This document shows positions 2,731 to 13,223 of a stretch of DNA of 64,000 nt, one piece after another; the stretch's first letter is position 1; the number at the start of each line of letters is the position of its first letter. The position numbers were made by a program, and so were the translations under genes. Where the stretch lies: positions 186,001 to 250,000 of the forward strand of contig JACPYT010000003.1 of the NCBI GenBank assembly GCA_016195805.1. Reading direction: 5' to 3'. Under the pieces are notes generated by a model. The model saw nothing but the letters and a program-made list of their open reading frames with translations. It was not told the origin of the DNA and searched no databases. This DNA is from Hydrogenophilales bacterium (GTDB lineage Bacteria; Pseudomonadota; Gammaproteobacteria; Burkholderiales; Thiobacillaceae).

Positions 2731-4017
2731 CTAACGGCGGATTTCCAGTACCGCCTCCAGCCCGCCTTGCGGGCGATTGCGGAGCGCCACTTTCAAGCCG
2801 TTTGTTTCTGCCAGCTGGCGCACGATCGCCAGCCCCAGCCCGGTTCCCCCGGTTGCCTGCGAACGTGACGTTTCCAGGCGATAGAACGGCCTGAACACTT
2901 TTTCCAGCTGATCCTCCGGAATCCCCGCGCCGGTATCGCGCACGATCACCCGCGCCAGCTTGTCGGTGCATTCCAGAACCAGTTCGGCTGGCATGCCGCC
3001 GCCATAACGCTGTGCGTTCTGGATCAGGTTCGACACGATCTGCCGCACCGCCAGCCGGCCGGCCTCGATCATGCACGGTGCCGCGCCCGGCCACGCCAGG
3101 TCCGCATCGGCAGCCGCCTCTTCCAGCAAGCCTGCAAGGTCGAAGCGCACCCGGTTTTCCGCCTGGGTGGTACGCGCCAGTTCCAGATAGCCGGTAATCA
3201 GCTTGTTCATGTCGGCCAGATCGGCCATCGCGCGGTCGATGCGCGCCGGGCTGGGGGCATCACGCAGCATTTCCAGGTTGAGTTGCAGGCGCGTCATGGG
3301 CGTGCGCAAGTCGTGCGAGACGCCCGCCAGGAGGGTGGTGCGGTTGTCCAGCAATGCACGCACCTCGGCCGCCATGGTATTGAAGCGGCGCGCCAGCTCG
3401 GCCAGCTCGGCGGGGCCGGTTTCCGGCAGAGGATCGGGCAGCTCGCCCGCCCCGACCAGGCTGGCCGCGCCCGCCGCGCGCGCCAGCGGCACGGTGATGC
3501 GGCGTACCAGGAACACGGCGGTCAGCAGACTAAGAAACGTGCCCAGGGCGATGACGGCGATCGCCGCCAGCGGCGGCTTGACGGCGTAGCGGCGCGGGAA
3601 GAAACCGACGTGCAGGTCATGGCCGCCCAGCGGAATGTCCAGCCAGGCGGCCGCCGTGCCCGGCACGCCGCGCAGGATCACATCGTCGCCTACGCGATGG
3701 CTCAGCGCGGCTTCGATCTGGGTACGGAAGGCGAAATGCGGCGCAGCTGTCGTCGCACCGAGGTTCGCGGTGGTCAGGCGCAGCCCGTGGCGGCGCGCCA
3801 GTTCGCGCTCGAACGCGGCGCGCGTCTGCGGCGGCAGTTCCACCCAGGTTTGCGCCGACAGCACGATCAGGCCGGCCAGGTCGTCGGCCGAGCGCTCCGC
3901 CACCGGCACGATCAGCGTGCGATACACCACCCAGAACGCAGCCGCCTGGAACACGACGAAGGCCAGCGCCAGCGTCAGCGCGGTACGGGCGAACAACGAG
4001 CGGGTGAGGCGCTTCAC
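2731..4017 (-). CDS. envZ: EnvZ-like sensor histidine kinase
   Basis: This 428-residue membrane histidine kinase has a transmembrane helix at about residues 12-34, a periplasmic domain of about 110 residues, and a second helix at about 149-172. HAMP and HisKA domains follow, with phospho-acceptor His235 in SHDLRTPMTRLQ, the EnvZ-style H box. The ATPase domain has the N box SNLIQNAQRY, RDTGAGIPE and GGTGLGLAIV. It overlaps the response regulator gene by 4 bp (ATGA), so the pair is co-translated. The H box and the OmpR-like partner support an EnvZ assignment. The stimulus may differ from osmolarity, because the periplasmic domain is poorly conserved in this family. Confidence 0.85.
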   Translation of the reverse strand: MKRLTRSLFARTALTLALAFVVFQAAAFWVVYRTLIVPVAERSADDLAGLIVLSAQTWVELPPQTRAAFERELARRHGLRLTTANLGATTAAPHFAFRTQIEAALSHRVGDDVILRGVPGTAAAWLDIPLGGHDLHVGFFPRRYAVKPPLAAIAVIALGTFLSLLTAVFLVRRITVPLARAAGAASLVGAGELPDPLPETGPAELAELARRFNTMAAEVRALLDNRTTLLAGVSHDLRTPMTRLQLNLEMLRDAPSPARIDRAMADLADMNKLITGYLELARTTQAENRVRFDLAGLLEEAAADADLAWPGAAPCMIEAGRLAVRQIVSNLIQNAQRYGGGMPAELVLECTDKLARVIVRDTGAGIPEDQLEKVFRPFYRLETSRSQATGGTGLGLAIVRQLAETNGLKVALRNRPQGGLEAVLEIRR

Positions 4018-4724
4018 CCTTTGCCCTGCGGAACGAACAGGTAGCCCTGCCCGCGCTGGGTGCGGATATAGGCCGGATTGGCCGGATCGTCCTCGATCTT
4101 CTTGCGCAGACGATTCACCCGCACGTCGATGCTGCGGTCGAACGGGTCGCGTTCGAAGCCGCGCAGCTGGTCCATCAGCCAGTCGCGCGACAGCGCACGG
4201 TTGGCGTGGGTGACGAAAATTTCAAGCAATTCGTATTCCCCGCTGGTCAGCGGGATTTCGGCGGCGGCGCGGCTGAGGGTGCGGGCGTCGAGATTGACGC
4301 TGAACGGGCCGAAATGCACGAGCCGGGCAGTCTCCGCCGCAGCCGGTGCTGCGCCGCCTTGCCGTCGCAGTACCGCCCGGATGCGGGCCAGCAGTTCGCG
4401 TGGATTGAACGGCTTGGGCAGGTAATCGTCGGCGCCGACCTCGAGGCCGATGATGCGATCGATGTCTTCGCCCTTGGCCGACAACATGATGATGGGGGGA
4501 AAGCCCGGCTGCGCGCGCAAGCGCCGCGCGATCGACAGGCCGTCCTCGCCCGGCATCATCCAGTCGAGCACCAGCAGGTCCGGCAGGCGGACGGCCAGCA
4601 GGCGATCGAGCGAGACCGCGTCTTCCGCCGTCTCGACGCGATAGCCCTGGCTTGTCAGGTACTCGGCCACCAGCTCGCGGATGCCCGGGTCGTCGTCGGT
4701 CACATAAATGCTGTCTTTTTCCAT
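4014..4724 (-). CDS. ompR: OmpR-family response regulator
   Basis: This 236-residue regulator has a receiver domain with phospho-acceptor Asp54 in LVLDWMMPGEDG, acidic residues near position 10, and the conserved lysine in PKPFNPRELLARI. A winged-helix DNA-binding domain makes up the C-terminal 100 residues and ends in the RGQGYLFVP wing typical of OmpR. The receiver is very close to E. coli OmpR in the ADDYLPKPFNPRELL region. It lies first in a two-gene unit with the kinase, and divergent from small secreted-protein genes. A direct repeat of GTTACA with 10-bp periodicity lies in the shared intergenic region. Confidence 0.9.
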   Translation of the reverse strand: MEKDSIYVTDDDPGIRELVAEYLTSQGYRVETAEDAVSLDRLLAVRLPDLLVLDWMMPGEDGLSIARRLRAQPGFPPIIMLSAKGEDIDRIIGLEVGADDYLPKPFNPRELLARIRAVLRRQGGAAPAAAETARLVHFGPFSVNLDARTLSRAAAEIPLTSGEYELLEIFVTHANRALSRDWLMDQLRGFERDPFDRSIDVRVNRLRKKIEDDPANPAYIRTQRGQGYLFVPQGKG

Positions 4725-8219: not shown

Positions 8220-8966
8220 CTATTCGTGATGCACGACAAAAGCAATTTCGGTGGTGAAATTGCCGATGCCGCGATGGTTGGTCAGCGTCCAGCCCGCGTC
8301 CTTGAGGTGATGCGTCAGTTCGCGCGTCATCTCCGGATTGCCGCAGATCATCACGCGGTCGTGCTCCGGATCCGGCGCGGGCAGGCCGAGACGCTGCGAC
8401 AGCGCGCCCGAGCGGAACAGGTCGCCCCCGCGTTCGGGCGTGGGGAACGGCTCGCGCGTCACCGTCGGCACGTAATGCAGCCGGTCGTTGTGCATGGCCT
8501 CGATTTCGGCGCGATAGGCCAATTCGGCCACTGTGCGCACCGAATGCACCAGCACCACGTTCTCATAGCGGGCATAGAGTTCGGGGTCGCGAATCAGGCT
8601 CATGAACGGGGCAAGGCCCGTGCCGGTAGCCAGCATGTACAGCGTACGCCCGGGCAGCACATGATTGAGCGTGAGCGAGCCGGTGGCCTTGCTGTTGACC
8701 CACACGCTGTCGCCCGGGCGGATGTGGACCAGCTGGCTGGTCAGAGGGCCGTCCGGCACGTGGATGCTGAGAAACTCGAGATGGTCGCGGTCGGCGGTGG
8801 AGACGATGGAATAGGCGCGCGCCACCAGCTTGCCTTCGCGCTTCAAACCGATGGTGACGAATTCACCGTTCTCGAATGAGAAATCCTGCGGGCGGCTGAG
8901 GGTAAAGCTGAACGTTTTGTCCGACCACGGACGCACCGACTGCACGGTCTGTTCACTGTAAGGCAT
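8220..8966 (-). CDS. fpr: ferredoxin--NADP(+) reductase
   Basis: This FAD- and NADP(H)-dependent reductase of 248 residues equals the length of E. coli Fpr. The FAD-binding RAYSIVS motif, the pyrophosphate-binding GTGLAPFMSLIRD and the C-terminal AFVVHHE are all present. The start is ambiguous: TTG at 8978 gives MESTMPYSEQ, but ATG at 8966 has GGAA 6 bases upstream and is preferred. An AT-rich promoter-like stretch lies in the 108-bp gap behind it. The enzyme exchanges electrons between NADPH and ferredoxin or flavodoxin and often responds to oxidative stress. Confidence 0.9.
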   Translation of the reverse strand: MPYSEQTVQSVRPWSDKTFSFTLSRPQDFSFENGEFVTIGLKREGKLVARAYSIVSTADRDHLEFLSIHVPDGPLTSQLVHIRPGDSVWVNSKATGSLTLNHVLPGRTLYMLATGTGLAPFMSLIRDPELYARYENVVLVHSVRTVAELAYRAEIEAMHNDRLHYVPTVTREPFPTPERGGDLFRSGALSQRLGLPAPDPEHDRVMICGNPEMTRELTHHLKDAGWTLTNHRGIGNFTTEIAFVVHHE

Positions 8967-9074
8967 GGTCGATTCCAAGTTTTCCGGGTTGATTAGTGAA
9001 TTTATATATTCTACTCAACAACCTCCGGGTGCAACACGGGCGGCGCCGGATAACGAAGGTACCGATTCGGCCGC

Positions 9075-10505
9075 TCAACCCTTGATGCAGACCAGCGGCT
9101 TCAGTCTGGCCACCTTGCACGCCAGCCCGGCACGGTCGGCCGCCTCCACCACGGCGCCGACGTCCTTGTAGGCGCCCGGCGCTTCTTCCGCCACGCCGCG
9201 CAGCGAGGGACTGCGGATCAGCACGCCCTGGCCGGCGAGTTCGTCCATCAACGTGCGGCCATGCCACTGGCGGGTCGCCTGGTGGCGGCTCATGGCCCGC
9301 CCGGCACCGTGGCAGGCGGAGCTGAAGGCGCGCGTCATGCCCGTCTCGGTACCGACCAGGATGTAGGACGCGGTACCCATGCTGCCGCCGATCAGCACCG
9401 GCTGGCCGATGTCGCGCAGCTCATTGGGCAGCGCCGGATAGCCGGGCCCGAAGGCGCGCGTCGCCCCCTTGCGGTGTACATAGAGGCGGCGCGACTGGCC
9501 GTCGACCGTGTGCGATTCCAGCTTGCAGGTATTGTGCGAAACGTCGTAGATCAGGGTGAGATGCGTCCCCGGAAGCAGGTCGGCGAACACTTGGCGGGTG
9601 AGATGGGTGATCACCTGACGGTTGGCCAGCGCACAGTTGATGGCAGCACGCATGGCGCCGAGATAGGCCTGTCCCAGCGAAGAGTTGATGGGCGCGCAGG
9701 CGAGCTCGCGGTCGGGCAGTTCAATGCCGTAACCCGGCGCGGCGATCACCATCTGCTTGAGGAATTCGGTGCCGATCTGGTGCCCCAGCCCGCGCGAGCC
9801 GCAGTGGATGCTGACCACCACTTCGCCCACGCGCAGGCGGAAGCGGTCGGCCGCTTTCGTATCGTGGATCTCGACGATTTCCTGCAGTTCGAGGTAATGA
9901 TTGCCGGACCCCAGGGTGCCGATCTCGTCGCGCTGGCGACGCTTGGCCTGGTCGGACACCTGATCCGGTTCGGCGCCGGCCATGTAGCCATGTTCCTCGA
10001 TGCGGTCCAGGTCGGCCGCGCTGCCGTAGCCGTGTTCGACCGCCCAGCGCGCACCGCCGCGCAGCATGGCGTCCATCTCGTTCGCATTCAGTCGCAACGG
10101 GCCGGTGCTGCCGACCCCGGCCGGAATGCGGGCGAACAGGCGGTCGGCCAGCCGCTGCTTGAGCGGCGCAACCTCGTCAGCCCTGAGCCCAGTATGCAAG
10201 GTGCGTACGCCGCAGGAAATGTCGAACCCCACCCCTCCTGCCGATACCACCCCGCCTGCGTCGGCATCGAACGCCGCCACCCCGCCGATCGGAAAGCCGT
10301 AGCCCCAGTGCGCGTCGGGCATGGCGTAGGCCGCCTGCACGATGCCCGGCAGGGTGGCGACGTTGGTGAGCTGCTCGAAGACCTTGTCGTCCATGTCCCG
10401 GATCAGCGCCTGATCGGCAAAAATCACCGCCGGTACGCGCATCTTGCCGAACGGCGCGATCTTCCATTCGACCTCCGACACCTGCTTGAACTGGGCGAGA
10501 TTCAT
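9075..10505 (-). CDS. rtcB: RtcB RNA-splicing/repair ligase (long form)
   Basis: This 476-residue GTP- and Mn-dependent ligase joins RNA 2',3'-cyclic phosphate ends to 5'-OH ends. Conserved blocks are MPDAHWGYGFPIGGVAAFD, GVGFDISCGVRTL with metal-binding Asp and Cys, and HCGSRGLGHQIGT. The HRKGATRAFGPGYP block contains a conserved His, which I believe is the guanylylated one. It is longer than E. coli RtcB (408 residues) and closer to the archaeal length, a form that usually works with archease. The gene lies 39 bp downstream of the cca-archease fusion on the same strand, so the enzyme and its activator are probably co-transcribed. No intein is visible. Confidence 0.95.
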   Translation of the reverse strand: MNLAQFKQVSEVEWKIAPFGKMRVPAVIFADQALIRDMDDKVFEQLTNVATLPGIVQAAYAMPDAHWGYGFPIGGVAAFDADAGGVVSAGGVGFDISCGVRTLHTGLRADEVAPLKQRLADRLFARIPAGVGSTGPLRLNANEMDAMLRGGARWAVEHGYGSAADLDRIEEHGYMAGAEPDQVSDQAKRRQRDEIGTLGSGNHYLELQEIVEIHDTKAADRFRLRVGEVVVSIHCGSRGLGHQIGTEFLKQMVIAAPGYGIELPDRELACAPINSSLGQAYLGAMRAAINCALANRQVITHLTRQVFADLLPGTHLTLIYDVSHNTCKLESHTVDGQSRRLYVHRKGATRAFGPGYPALPNELRDIGQPVLIGGSMGTASYILVGTETGMTRAFSSACHGAGRAMSRHQATRQWHGRTLMDELAGQGVLIRSPSLRGVAEEAPGAYKDVGAVVEAADRAGLACKVARLKPLVCIKG

Positions 10506-10544: not shown

Positions 10545-12170
10545 TCAGACGTCCACCACGCACTGGGCCAACCATTGCCCCGCGTCATTCTTCCTTACAC
10601 GCAATTCAGTATAGGTGGCGCCCTTGATTTCGACGGCCGGCCGGTGTTTGTCCAGGTCGACCGGCTCGCCCCATGCGGTGGCATGCAGGTGGTGGCCGTC
10701 CAGCCTGACCTCGAAGCGGCCGAACAGCATGCGGCGCGCGGCCATCTCCAGGATCAGCGCGTTCAGCCAGTCGACCAGCAGCAGTTCGTCGTCCGGCGCC
10801 TCGCAGCGGATGTCCACCGCCTCGTTCGCCGCCACCCCGGACGGATCGGTCACCACGGCGGTCATGGCCAGCGCGGTCTGCTCGAATGCGGCCGCCAGGG
10901 TAGGCCCGATGCCGCGCACGCCCATGTCCGCCTGATGCGGGAAATGTTCCCAGTGCGCGCCCTGGCTGCGCGACGCGGCCACCGCTCGCGTCCGCGCCTG
11001 GAAGATCGCTTCCCGGATACGCGCCGGCTCGACGCTGCGCGCCACCTCGGCGGCATCGATGGTCTGCGCTGCCTGCAGCGCCTGCCGCAGGTAATCGGGC
11101 TCGGGAAAAGGTTTGTCCTCGTAGCCGGGGCGGCCACGGAAATCGCATTCGCAAGCCTGCAGAAAGGCCTCGAAGCGTTCGGGACGGCGGAAGGCGTCGA
11201 CCCGTTCCAGCAGTTCGACGACCGTTCCGGGGCGCAATTCCAGCGCGCGATGGGCGTTGCCGTGGTCGCGCGCCACCGCAACGGCGAGGTCGCGGCAGTC
11301 GGCCGGCACCCGGATGCGCTCGCTCAGCGCACGCACCAGTTCGACGCTCCTGGCTTCGTGGCCGTGATGTCTGGGCCACAGTTCGGGCGGGGTGACGCCC
11401 TTGCCGAGGTCGTGCGTCAAGGCGGCGAAGCGCACCGGCAGGCTCATGCCCTGCCGCGCCGCCCAGTCGACCACGAGCATGACATGAACGCCGGCATCGA
11501 TTTCGGGATGATGCTGCGGCGGCTGCGGTACGCCGAACAGGCGATCGATTTCGGGAAACAGCCGCGCCAGCGCGCCGCAGTCGCGCAGCACCTGGAACAT
11601 GCGCGAGGGTTGCGCTTCCATCAGGCCGCGTGCGATTTCCTGCCACACGCGCTCGGGCACCAGCGCGTCGATTTCGCCGTTGTCGACCATCTGCCGCATC
11701 AGCGCGTTGGTTTCCGGCGCCACGACAAAGTCGGTGAAGCGTGCGGCAAAGCGCGCCAAGCGCAGAATCCGCACCGGATCCTCGGCAAAGGCTTCGCTCA
11801 CATGGCGGAAAATTTTCGCCGCCAGATCGCGCTGGCCGCCGTAGGGGTCAACCAGCGCGCCGGCCGCGTCTTCGGCCATCGCATTGATGGTGAGGTCGCG
11901 TCGGCGCAGGTCCTCCTCCAGCGTGACCTCCGGTGCGGCATAGACCTTGAAGCCCTTGTAGCCATGCCCGGACTTGCGCTCGGTACGCGCGAGCGCGTAT
12001 TCCTCGTGGGTTTTAGGGTGCAGGAAGACCGGAAAATCCTTGCCGACCGGCTGGTAGCCCAGCGCCACCATGGCATCGGGGGTCGCGCCGACGACGACGT
12101 GATCGCGGTCGGCCACCGGCAGGCCCAGCAACCGGTCACGCACTGCGCCGCCAACGATGTAGGTTTTCAT
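10545..12170 (-). CDS. cca: CCA-adding tRNA nucleotidyltransferase fused to archease
   Basis: This 541-residue protein has two parts in one uninterrupted frame. Residues 1-404 are a bacterial Cca: VGGAVRD, the catalytic pair Asp21 and Asp23 in [35 protein letters not shown], and an HD phosphohydrolase motif (THDLGKG, about 252-258). Residues 406-541 match archease: [15 protein letters not shown], a helix rich in Ala, [17 protein letters not shown] and the terminal CVVDV. Asp415 and Asp540 correspond to the two metal-binding aspartates I know from archeases. E. coli Cca is 412 residues, so the extra 136 residues are an added domain with almost no linker. rtcB follows directly. A sequencing indel joining two genes cannot be excluded. 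Confidence 0.88.
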
Positions 12171-12185: not shown

Positions 12186-13223
12186 TTAGCGGTGGGCGTT
12201 TTCCCGATAATCCTCATATCGCGCACGTGGGGTATCGGCACGCAGGTATTCGGGGGCGATGGCTTCGAGCGATGCCGGCTGGAAATCGAACACCGAAGGC
12301 CAGCCGCCATGGCATACGTTGTCCGTGCTCATGGCATAGAAGTTGTCGCGCGTCATCAGCTTCTTGCCCGGCTTGAATTCCAGTGCCCAGGCCTGGAAAT
12401 ACGACATCCATTTGCCCAGTGGGATGATGCTGCGCTTCTTGCCGATCACCTCGCCGACGTAGGCCACCAATTCACCCAAGGTATAGGCCCTGGGGCCGCA
12501 TAGCTCGTAGGTCTGGCCGAAGGTGACGGTGTTGTCCAGGCTGTTGGCAAAGGCGCGTGCGACGTCCTCGACATAGACGGGCGCAAAGCGGCTGTCGGCC
12601 GCTGCGAGCGGCAGCACCGGGAATGTTTTCAGCAGACGGGCGAACATCGAGAGAAAGGAATCGCCGCGGCCAAAGATCACCGATGGCCGGAAGATGGTGA
12701 CATTGAGGCCGTACCCGTGGATGAACTTGGGACCGTTCAGGTACCAGTTCTCATGTTCGACGTGGTGTCTCCCGGCTTCGCGCACCAGCGCTTCGGCAAT
12801 GCCCTTGGAGCGCTGGTAGGCCGAACGCGAGTTCGGGTGGGCACCCAGTGCGCTCATGTGCAGCAGGCGATGCACGCCCGATTCGCCGCAGGCATGGATG
12901 ACCTTGCGCGGCAATTCGATGTGGACCTTCTGGAAATCGCCGCGGCGGGCGCTCGGCAAGTCGACACGCCCGACCTTGCCTTCGTGCAGGATGCCGACCA
13001 GATTGATGACGGCGTCCATGCCGCGGAAATGCTGGATGAGCTCCTGCTGGTCGTGCACGTCGGCCTCGATCACTTCCACCGTGGGCAGCAGGATCAGTTC
13101 CTTGGCCATTTCGCGGCGGTGGGACAGCACGCGAACCTGGAGGCCTCGCGCGGCGAGCTGGCTGACGAGCTGGGTGCCGACAAAGCCGGACCCGCCGAGG
13201 ATGCAGATGCGTTGAATCTTCAT
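12186..13223 (-). CDS. NDUFA9-like NAD(P)-binding SDR protein
   Basis: This 345-residue atypical short-chain dehydrogenase has a Rossmann GGSGFVG (residues 10-16), YQRSK as the YxxxK motif, and GRGDSFLSMFARL, typical of the complex I NDUFA9 / nucleoside-diphosphate-sugar epimerase-like group. Bacterial members are not proven complex I subunits and may act in quinone or lipid metabolism. It sits 15 bp upstream of the cca-archease gene on the same strand and probably heads that operon. The inverted-repeat element lies just behind its start region. The substrate cannot be told from the sequence. Confidence 0.8.
   Translation of the reverse strand: MKIQRICILGGSGFVGTQLVSQLAARGLQVRVLSHRREMAKELILLPTVEVIEADVHDQQELIQHFRGMDAVINLVGILHEGKVGRVDLPSARRGDFQKVHIELPRKVIHACGESGVHRLLHMSALGAHPNSRSAYQRSKGIAEALVREAGRHHVEHENWYLNGPKFIHGYGLNVTIFRPSVIFGRGDSFLSMFARLLKTFPVLPLAAADSRFAPVYVEDVARAFANSLDNTVTFGQTYELCGPRAYTLGELVAYVGEVIGKKRSIIPLGKWMSYFQAWALEFKPGKKLMTRDNFYAMSTDNVCHGGWPSVFDFQPASLEAIAPEYLRADTPRARYEDYRENAHR

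Follow-up and report, generated by a model that had tools for sequence, protein, structure and literature searches.

The window, the 64,000-nucleotide stretch of DNA that was analyzed, carries on its minus strand a cca-archease fusion gene encoding 541 residues (positions 10545 to 12170; ATG at 12170, stop at 10545). The single unbroken frame of Cca followed by archease that had been proposed here was confirmed over 541 codons, with Pfam and NCBIfam domains at residues 1 to 403 (10962 to 12170, minus strand) and 406 to 541 (10548 to 10955, minus strand). The junction between them, residues 404 and 405 (10956 to 10961, minus strand), is open in frame and corresponds to a linker that is variable among fused relatives. 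The adjoining rtcB gene, also anticipated in the original prediction, was found on the same strand at 9075 to 10505; it encodes an RNA ligase of 476 residues (PF01139, 562 bits), on which the archease part presumably acts. The fusion stop and the rtcB ATG are 39 bases apart, which is the adjacency of an archease-rtcB operon. Just upstream of the fusion, with 15 bases between its end and the fusion start, lies a gene for an NAD-dependent epimerase/SDR (12186 to 13223, minus strand), which forms part of an SDR-cca-FNR locus, and downstream of rtcB lies a gene for an FNR-like FAD/NAD(P) oxidoreductase (8220 to 8978, minus strand). In most genomes that have no archease-rtcB cassette, the latter gene comes after cca. 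Because a promoter and terminator scan at the fusion locus gave no signal above chance, co-transcription is suggested by spacing and strand alone.

The N-terminal part matched the full-length Cca model NF008137 ("multifunctional CCA addition/repair protein") over residues 1 to 403, with 655 bits against a cut-off of 451. Pfam resolved this part into PolyA_pol at residues 3 to 121 (PF01743, 63 bits), the nucleotidyltransferase head with D21 and D23; an RNA-binding domain at 147 to 210 (PF12627); and an HD phosphohydrolase domain at 229 to 309 (PF01966, 35 bits) with H253 and D254. None of these four residues varied among 58 aligned Cca sequences, and the Asp21, Asp23, and HD motif named in the original prediction are thereby confirmed; D21 and D23 presumably form the catalytic aspartate pair of the Cca head. 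Judged by these matches, the N-terminal part is a complete bacterial Cca of the E. coli type.

E. coli Cca is a repair enzyme. In the genome to which the window belongs, a tRNA model gave 39 matches, 38 of them above the cut-off, and CCA was encoded in all 33 distinct tRNA genes found in 30 fetched loci. Since all 33 examined tRNA genes encode CCA, the Cca of the fusion is probably a repair enzyme rather than a maker of CCA ends. The proposed role of the fusion in tRNA 3'-end synthesis or repair is thereby narrowed, synthesis being unlikely as the main job and repair being the likelier function. The HD domain of this kind of Cca removes 2',3'-cyclic phosphates at tRNA 3' ends in E. coli, according to work cited in the available text of PMC10673834. 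A search of the same genome with the whole protein gave a single further relative, a 33% match to the polymerase head, which would be a poly(A) polymerase. Predicted Cca-like HD paralogues were also noted in other genomes (G396:C6:340910-341851 and on G394:C21, G402:C99, G376:C52, G395:C347, and G384:C12); they were about 40% identical to Cca residues ∼132 to 402, covering the RNA-binding and HD parts, and had no match to the polymerase head.

The C-terminal part matched PF01951 (Archease) at residues 407 to 541 with 137 bits against a cut-off of 25, covering model positions 1 to 136 of 136. At residues 406 to 541, the NCBIfam model NF001617, which is named "hypothetical protein" and has 139 positions, scored 107.1 bits, below its cut-off of 126; this miss lowers membership in that equivalog group only. 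To compare functional residues, the part was aligned to the Pyrococcus horikoshii archease 4n2p, with chain numbering one higher than in PMC3973293. In the available text of that report, changes of H9, D12, K117, or D141 and deletion of the last residue, I142, drastically or severely cut GTP-dependent RtcB activation. These positions align with H412, D415, K516, D540, and V541 of the fusion, so that the conservation claimed for Asp415 and Asp540 holds through their alignment with D12 and D141. The fusion therefore retains the two metal-ligand aspartates and a free C-terminal carboxylate, together with the His and Lys of GTP-dependent activation. The last-residue carboxylate of archease is described as a metal ligand in the accessible parts of PMC3973293 and PMC10944509, and in the complex from humans the third manganese ion is bound by the corresponding aspartates together with the C-terminal carboxylate (PMC10944509, same parts). 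As archease forms the C-terminal part of the fusion, this terminal ligand stays free. The P. horikoshii E8 position, at which a change impaired ATP use and left GTP use unaffected (PMC3973293, available text), is P411 in the fusion; as far as is known, this position is not family-defining. Cca is attached about 10 residues upstream of D415. By these sequence criteria the C-terminal part is a complete archease.

Structure prediction was informative for the Cca part only. In an AlphaFold model of the whole fusion built from 58 rows, 33 of 40 ten-residue blocks up to residue 400 reached a pLDDT of ≥90. The archease blocks of this model were below 60, because just 6 of the 58 rows cover the archease. 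A model of the archease alone (16 rows) had a mean pLDDT of 44, with block means below 60.

Fourteen of 56 Thiobacillus genomes carry the fusion. In 13 of these, that of the window included, it was one unbroken frame from residue 1 to 541, which speaks against a stop and start at the junction. In the remaining genome (G414) the gene was split by contig ends: a single frame at the end of one contig holds residues 142 to 541, and a second contig holds residues 1 to 188. Among the 13 unbroken cases were two single-contig assemblies (G375 and G370) and the isolate Thiobacillus thioparus DSM 505 (L045; contig coordinates the same as in G423). A GTDB scan gave at least five fused loci among 80 of 535 loci, L045 being one of the five. 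In the fused relatives, the linker differs in both length and sequence and the frame nevertheless stays open, and rtcB lies directly downstream of all 14 fused genes. The recurrence of the unbroken junction in 13 genomes, together with one split gene, cannot be explained by chance or an indel. The probability that an assembly or sequencing error joined two genes is therefore negligible, and the Cca-archease fusion is real.

Archease was present in 27 of the 56 genomes and RtcB of the same type in 28, namely, the 27 archease-bearing genomes and G407, whose rtcB is cut by a contig end. Apart from the stump described below, the other 29 genomes gave no archease match; in three of them (G383, G407, and G419) the cca gene was likewise not found. 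G382 and G413 gave only distant RtcB-like matches (33 to 42%). As some assemblies of the genus are ∼70 to 80% complete, these absences are upper bounds. In G394, archease-rtcB and cca lie on different contigs, and the archease-rtcB pair is of other origin.

In 12 of the 56 genomes, cca stands apart from archease-rtcB, with a gene of 138 codons in between. This gene is lipoprotein-like by its N terminus as judged by eye and was located at L014:6394-6810 and at the same place in the 11 other genomes. A 46 to 59% relative of it occurs elsewhere in 7 of the 14 fused genomes. The separated state with its intervening gene is perhaps a later un-fusing.

A decayed form was present in G413. The match of its DNA to the window passes through the junction without interruption and ends at position 10907 (80% over 1,490 bases); it begins again at 9040 (86% over 816 bases), a short way upstream of the gene for the oxidoreductase. 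The whole of rtcB and the greater part of archease are missing, and the Cca frame is open. The fusion stump (L177, ∼3260-3325) has a stop at the position of W407, followed in the same frame by about 15 recognizable residues. The assembly is 84% complete, and a search of the genome found no second archease. A single deletion that took out rtcB and the bulk of archease would be the simplest cause, and the stump suggests that this lineage once had the fused form, with archease and rtcB lost together and Cca kept without archease. Such a joint deletion suggests that RtcB, and not Cca, is the partner served by archease. The physical tie between Cca and ligation that had been proposed is probably not an obligatory one, given the 12 genomes with the genes apart and this genome, which lost archease and rtcB and kept Cca. 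Seven genomes in which the Cca match runs past the stop were read, and archease sequence after the stop was seen only in G413. A fusion remnant in G382 was considered and not supported, as homology to its fused sister stops at the end of Cca.

Outside the genus, no Cca-archease fusion was found in the sampled genomes of the family, order, class, and phylum, so that the requested mapping of its spread yields 14 of 56 genomes of one genus. Within the family, all 61 other genomes were without it among the matches listed. At least 15 archease matches in the rest of the family were 37 to 44% identical and lay on a different contig from cca or, in G465, 390 kb away. Archease was found in 81 of 369 genomes of the class sample, 75 of 399 of the order sample, and 7 of 299 of the phylum sample; these samples overlap, and each was drawn from a larger group. 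Phyla beyond that of the window were covered by 14 control genomes. Archease frames of at least 480 residues were read as candidate fusions in G147, G133, G213, and G062 (class) and G501 (order), as were shorter ones in G035, G008, G667, G913, and G636; all were without Cca. Other archease frames below 480 residues, such as those of G728 (345) and G442 (325), were left out of this reading.

The neighborhood of cca and archease does occur elsewhere without fusion. In the family f230, in which 0 of 10 genomes had the fusion, the candidate G625 (L222, ∼4260-4275) was rejected, as cca and archease overlap by 4 bases in different frames. The overlap reads GTGA, with a putative start codon, and rtcB is next. 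In G714 and G555, of the same genus as G625, cca and archease are separated by a gene that is glutathione-S-transferase-like by eye. In the class and order samples, rtcB was beside archease in 57 of 58 fetched archease loci, three of which are of Thiobacillus. Two damaged loci were also seen: in G655 (L226, ∼3547-3642) just the C-terminal end of archease lies beside an RtcB frame, which could be decay or an error in the metagenome-assembled genome, and in G636 (L220, 1585-2747) the first 98 archease residues abut an internal RtcB match in a different frame, apparently a broken archease-rtcB pair.

In a quick tree of archease plus RtcB (78 rows), the copies of the genus grouped with those of family f197 of the same order with an SH-aLRT of 100; at three f197 loci, archease was 76 to 78% and RtcB 79 to 81% identical, and neither cca nor the 138-residue gene was found in the 14 kb read at each. 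The oxidoreductase gene was within the fetched stretch at 19 of 25 cassette-free cca loci of the genus. It is probable from these comparisons that an archease-rtcB pair closest to that of f197 entered the SDR-cca-FNR locus between cca and FNR. In the best trees, the separated genomes were placed among the fused ones, and in none of 200 bootstrap trees did either group come out as a clade of its own. In AU tests, a single clade was not rejected with the archease plus RtcB protein tree (P = 0.251 for separated and 0.236 for fused) and was marginally rejected with the DNA tree (P = 0.044 each), the latter being tested once the first tree was known and drawn with G370 as a chosen root. The basal row varied between trees (G370 versus G372). 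In a quick tree of SDR plus Cca (48 rows), cassette-free genomes also fell among the fused ones, with weak support. The order favored by these trees is fused first and separated later, and the simplest story would be cassette entry, fusion to cca, and later separation by the 138-residue gene.

All three proteins are under purifying selection. The median pairwise dN/dS of Cca was 0.153 in fused genomes (91 pairs), 0.108 in separated genomes (66 pairs), and 0.115 in cassette-free genomes (300 pairs from 25 loci, G394 included), so that Cca appeared slightly less constrained in fused genomes than elsewhere. For archease, the medians were 0.188 (fused, 91 pairs) and 0.169 (separated, 66 pairs), and for RtcB they were 0.135 beside fused genes (91 pairs) and 0.127 beside separated genes (66 pairs). 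The pairs are nonindependent, and the order of size alone is meant.

The reading that we consider fairly probable is that the gene encodes one bifunctional RNA-end-repair protein, of fusion origin, whose parts are most likely independent and which is made together with its RtcB. The Cca part would re-add missing CCA residues, and its HD domain would clear phosphates at tRNA 3' ends. The archease part would bind the RtcB of the next gene and drive its guanylylation, and RtcB, once guanylylated, would reseal RNAs with 2',3'-cyclic-phosphate and 5'-OH ends. This state would have arisen when archease-rtcB from another lineage entered the SDR-cca-FNR locus, where the frame of cca was joined to that of archease, and the main gain would be the constant coproduction of the two functions, repair of tRNA ends and activation of the ligase. 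The frame, the domains, the key residues, the spread, the purifying constraint, and the joint absence with rtcB were observed directly; what we infer is that the protein has both activities, that it activates RtcB in this species, how the fusion originated, and that there is no channeling. The parts are taken to be independent because 12 genomes have them separated, G413 lacks archease and rtcB together, and the linker varies. Counting against this reading, not all bacterial RtcB proteins need archease, according to the available text of PMC10630183.

A closer form of cooperation would be substrate coupling, in which Cca holds or recruits damaged tRNA and archease brings RtcB to the break in that very molecule; a tRNA with a cut anticodon loop and a nibbled 3' end would then be mended in one visit. 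Both activities do act on RNA ends, and tRNA is what Cca acts on; 14 of 56 genomes retain the fusion, their Cca identity to the window going down to 76 to 82%, and both parts are under constraint; and in Salmonella, broken tRNA halves induce the rtcBA operon, implying tRNA repair (PMC7790460, available text). We nevertheless hold such coupling to be unlikely, in view of the 12 genomes with the genes apart, the one that keeps Cca without archease and rtcB, and a linker that varies in length and sequence. The chemistry of the ends also argues against it. A CCA-adding enzyme extends a 3'-OH. RtcB seals a 5'-OH end to one that carries a 2',3'-cyclic phosphate or a 3'-phosphate (PMC3973293, available text), and the two enzymes therefore act on different ends. 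For the same reason, the hand-over of ends from CCA addition to RtcB advanced in the original prediction found no support, and a transfer of tRNA ends between the fusion parts is at most possible. In a more specific version, which appears quite unlikely, Cca would dock on a tRNA damaged in its anticodon loop and at its 3' end and restore the acceptor end through its HD domain and polymerase, while the tethered archease would charge RtcB for sealing of the loop; if this were true, the tether would concentrate activated ligase locally around broken tRNAs.

The whole fusion might also be translated and then yield two working pieces by proteolysis, or archease might be made from an internal start as well. 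In 12 of the 14 fused genes, at least one in-frame NTG was present at residues 386 to 415, in most cases a GTG in the final helix of Cca; in G409 an ATG stands immediately ahead of the archease start, and G375 and G370 have a GGAGG run two bases ahead of an in-frame GTG. Such a two-base spacing is closer than usual, the other sites have no clear Shine-Dalgarno sequence by eye, and the GTG codons mostly encode a Cca valine that is present in unfused relatives too. The remaining two genes have no in-frame ATG, GTG, TTG, or CTG in this range, so that by ordinary starts archease is made there solely within the fusion. Two pieces are thus decidedly improbable. A far-fetched reading is that the archease part works for Cca, in the manner of a chaperone or specificity factor, and not for RtcB. 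Its precedent is the Pyrococcus abyssi archease, which improved a tRNA m5C methyltransferase (Auxilien 2007, cited in the available text of PMC3973293 and PMC4275035); the residues needed for RtcB activation are kept in the fusion, however, and archease and rtcB are present or absent together, both being gone in G413, where Cca is open.

The preferred reading, a bifunctional protein with independent parts, has some bearing beyond this locus. The RNA substrates of bacterial RtcB are not yet settled, and the natural joining of its activator to a repair enzyme specific for tRNA suggests, on genomic grounds, that tRNA is a substrate in this lineage. As the genus contains genomes in the fused, separated, absent, and decayed states, the value of the fusion can be compared among them. 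The layout also fits the chemistry, in that archease needs a free C terminus and is the C-terminal part in all 14 fused genes.

Among known systems, the E. coli-type multifunctional CCA protein (NF008137) shares with the fusion its complete nucleotidyltransferase, RNA-binding, and HD parts; to our knowledge, E. coli Cca is without an archease part. The RtcAB/RtcR RNA repair operon, as described in the available text of PMC7790460, resembles the present locus in its RtcB ligase and presumed resealing of broken tRNA, and bacterial RtcB is held there to reseal cut RNAs, probably including tRNA halves. That operon contains rtcA, whereas no rtcA match (PF01137) was found in the genome of the window, which is 99.85% complete (an E. 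coli control was positive), and archease is the accessory factor here. Phage tRNA-repair sets (PMC7824862) likewise bring CCA addition and RNA ligation into one repair setting, although neither a fusion of a CCA enzyme to a ligase nor archease was seen in the portion available. As the original prediction had supposed, the literature searched on archease, some of it available in part, held no earlier report of a Cca-archease fusion. A further counterpart is the archease-rtcB operon (Desai et al. 2014, PMC3973293, available text), in which archease lies beside rtcB and has the same metal ligands. There, archease is a free 16-kDa protein with E8 required for ATP use; here, the corresponding residue is a proline, and archease is the C-terminal part of a CCA-adding enzyme. 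The domain architecture is thus, as far as the searches show, a new one, built of two known families and seen so far in one genus.
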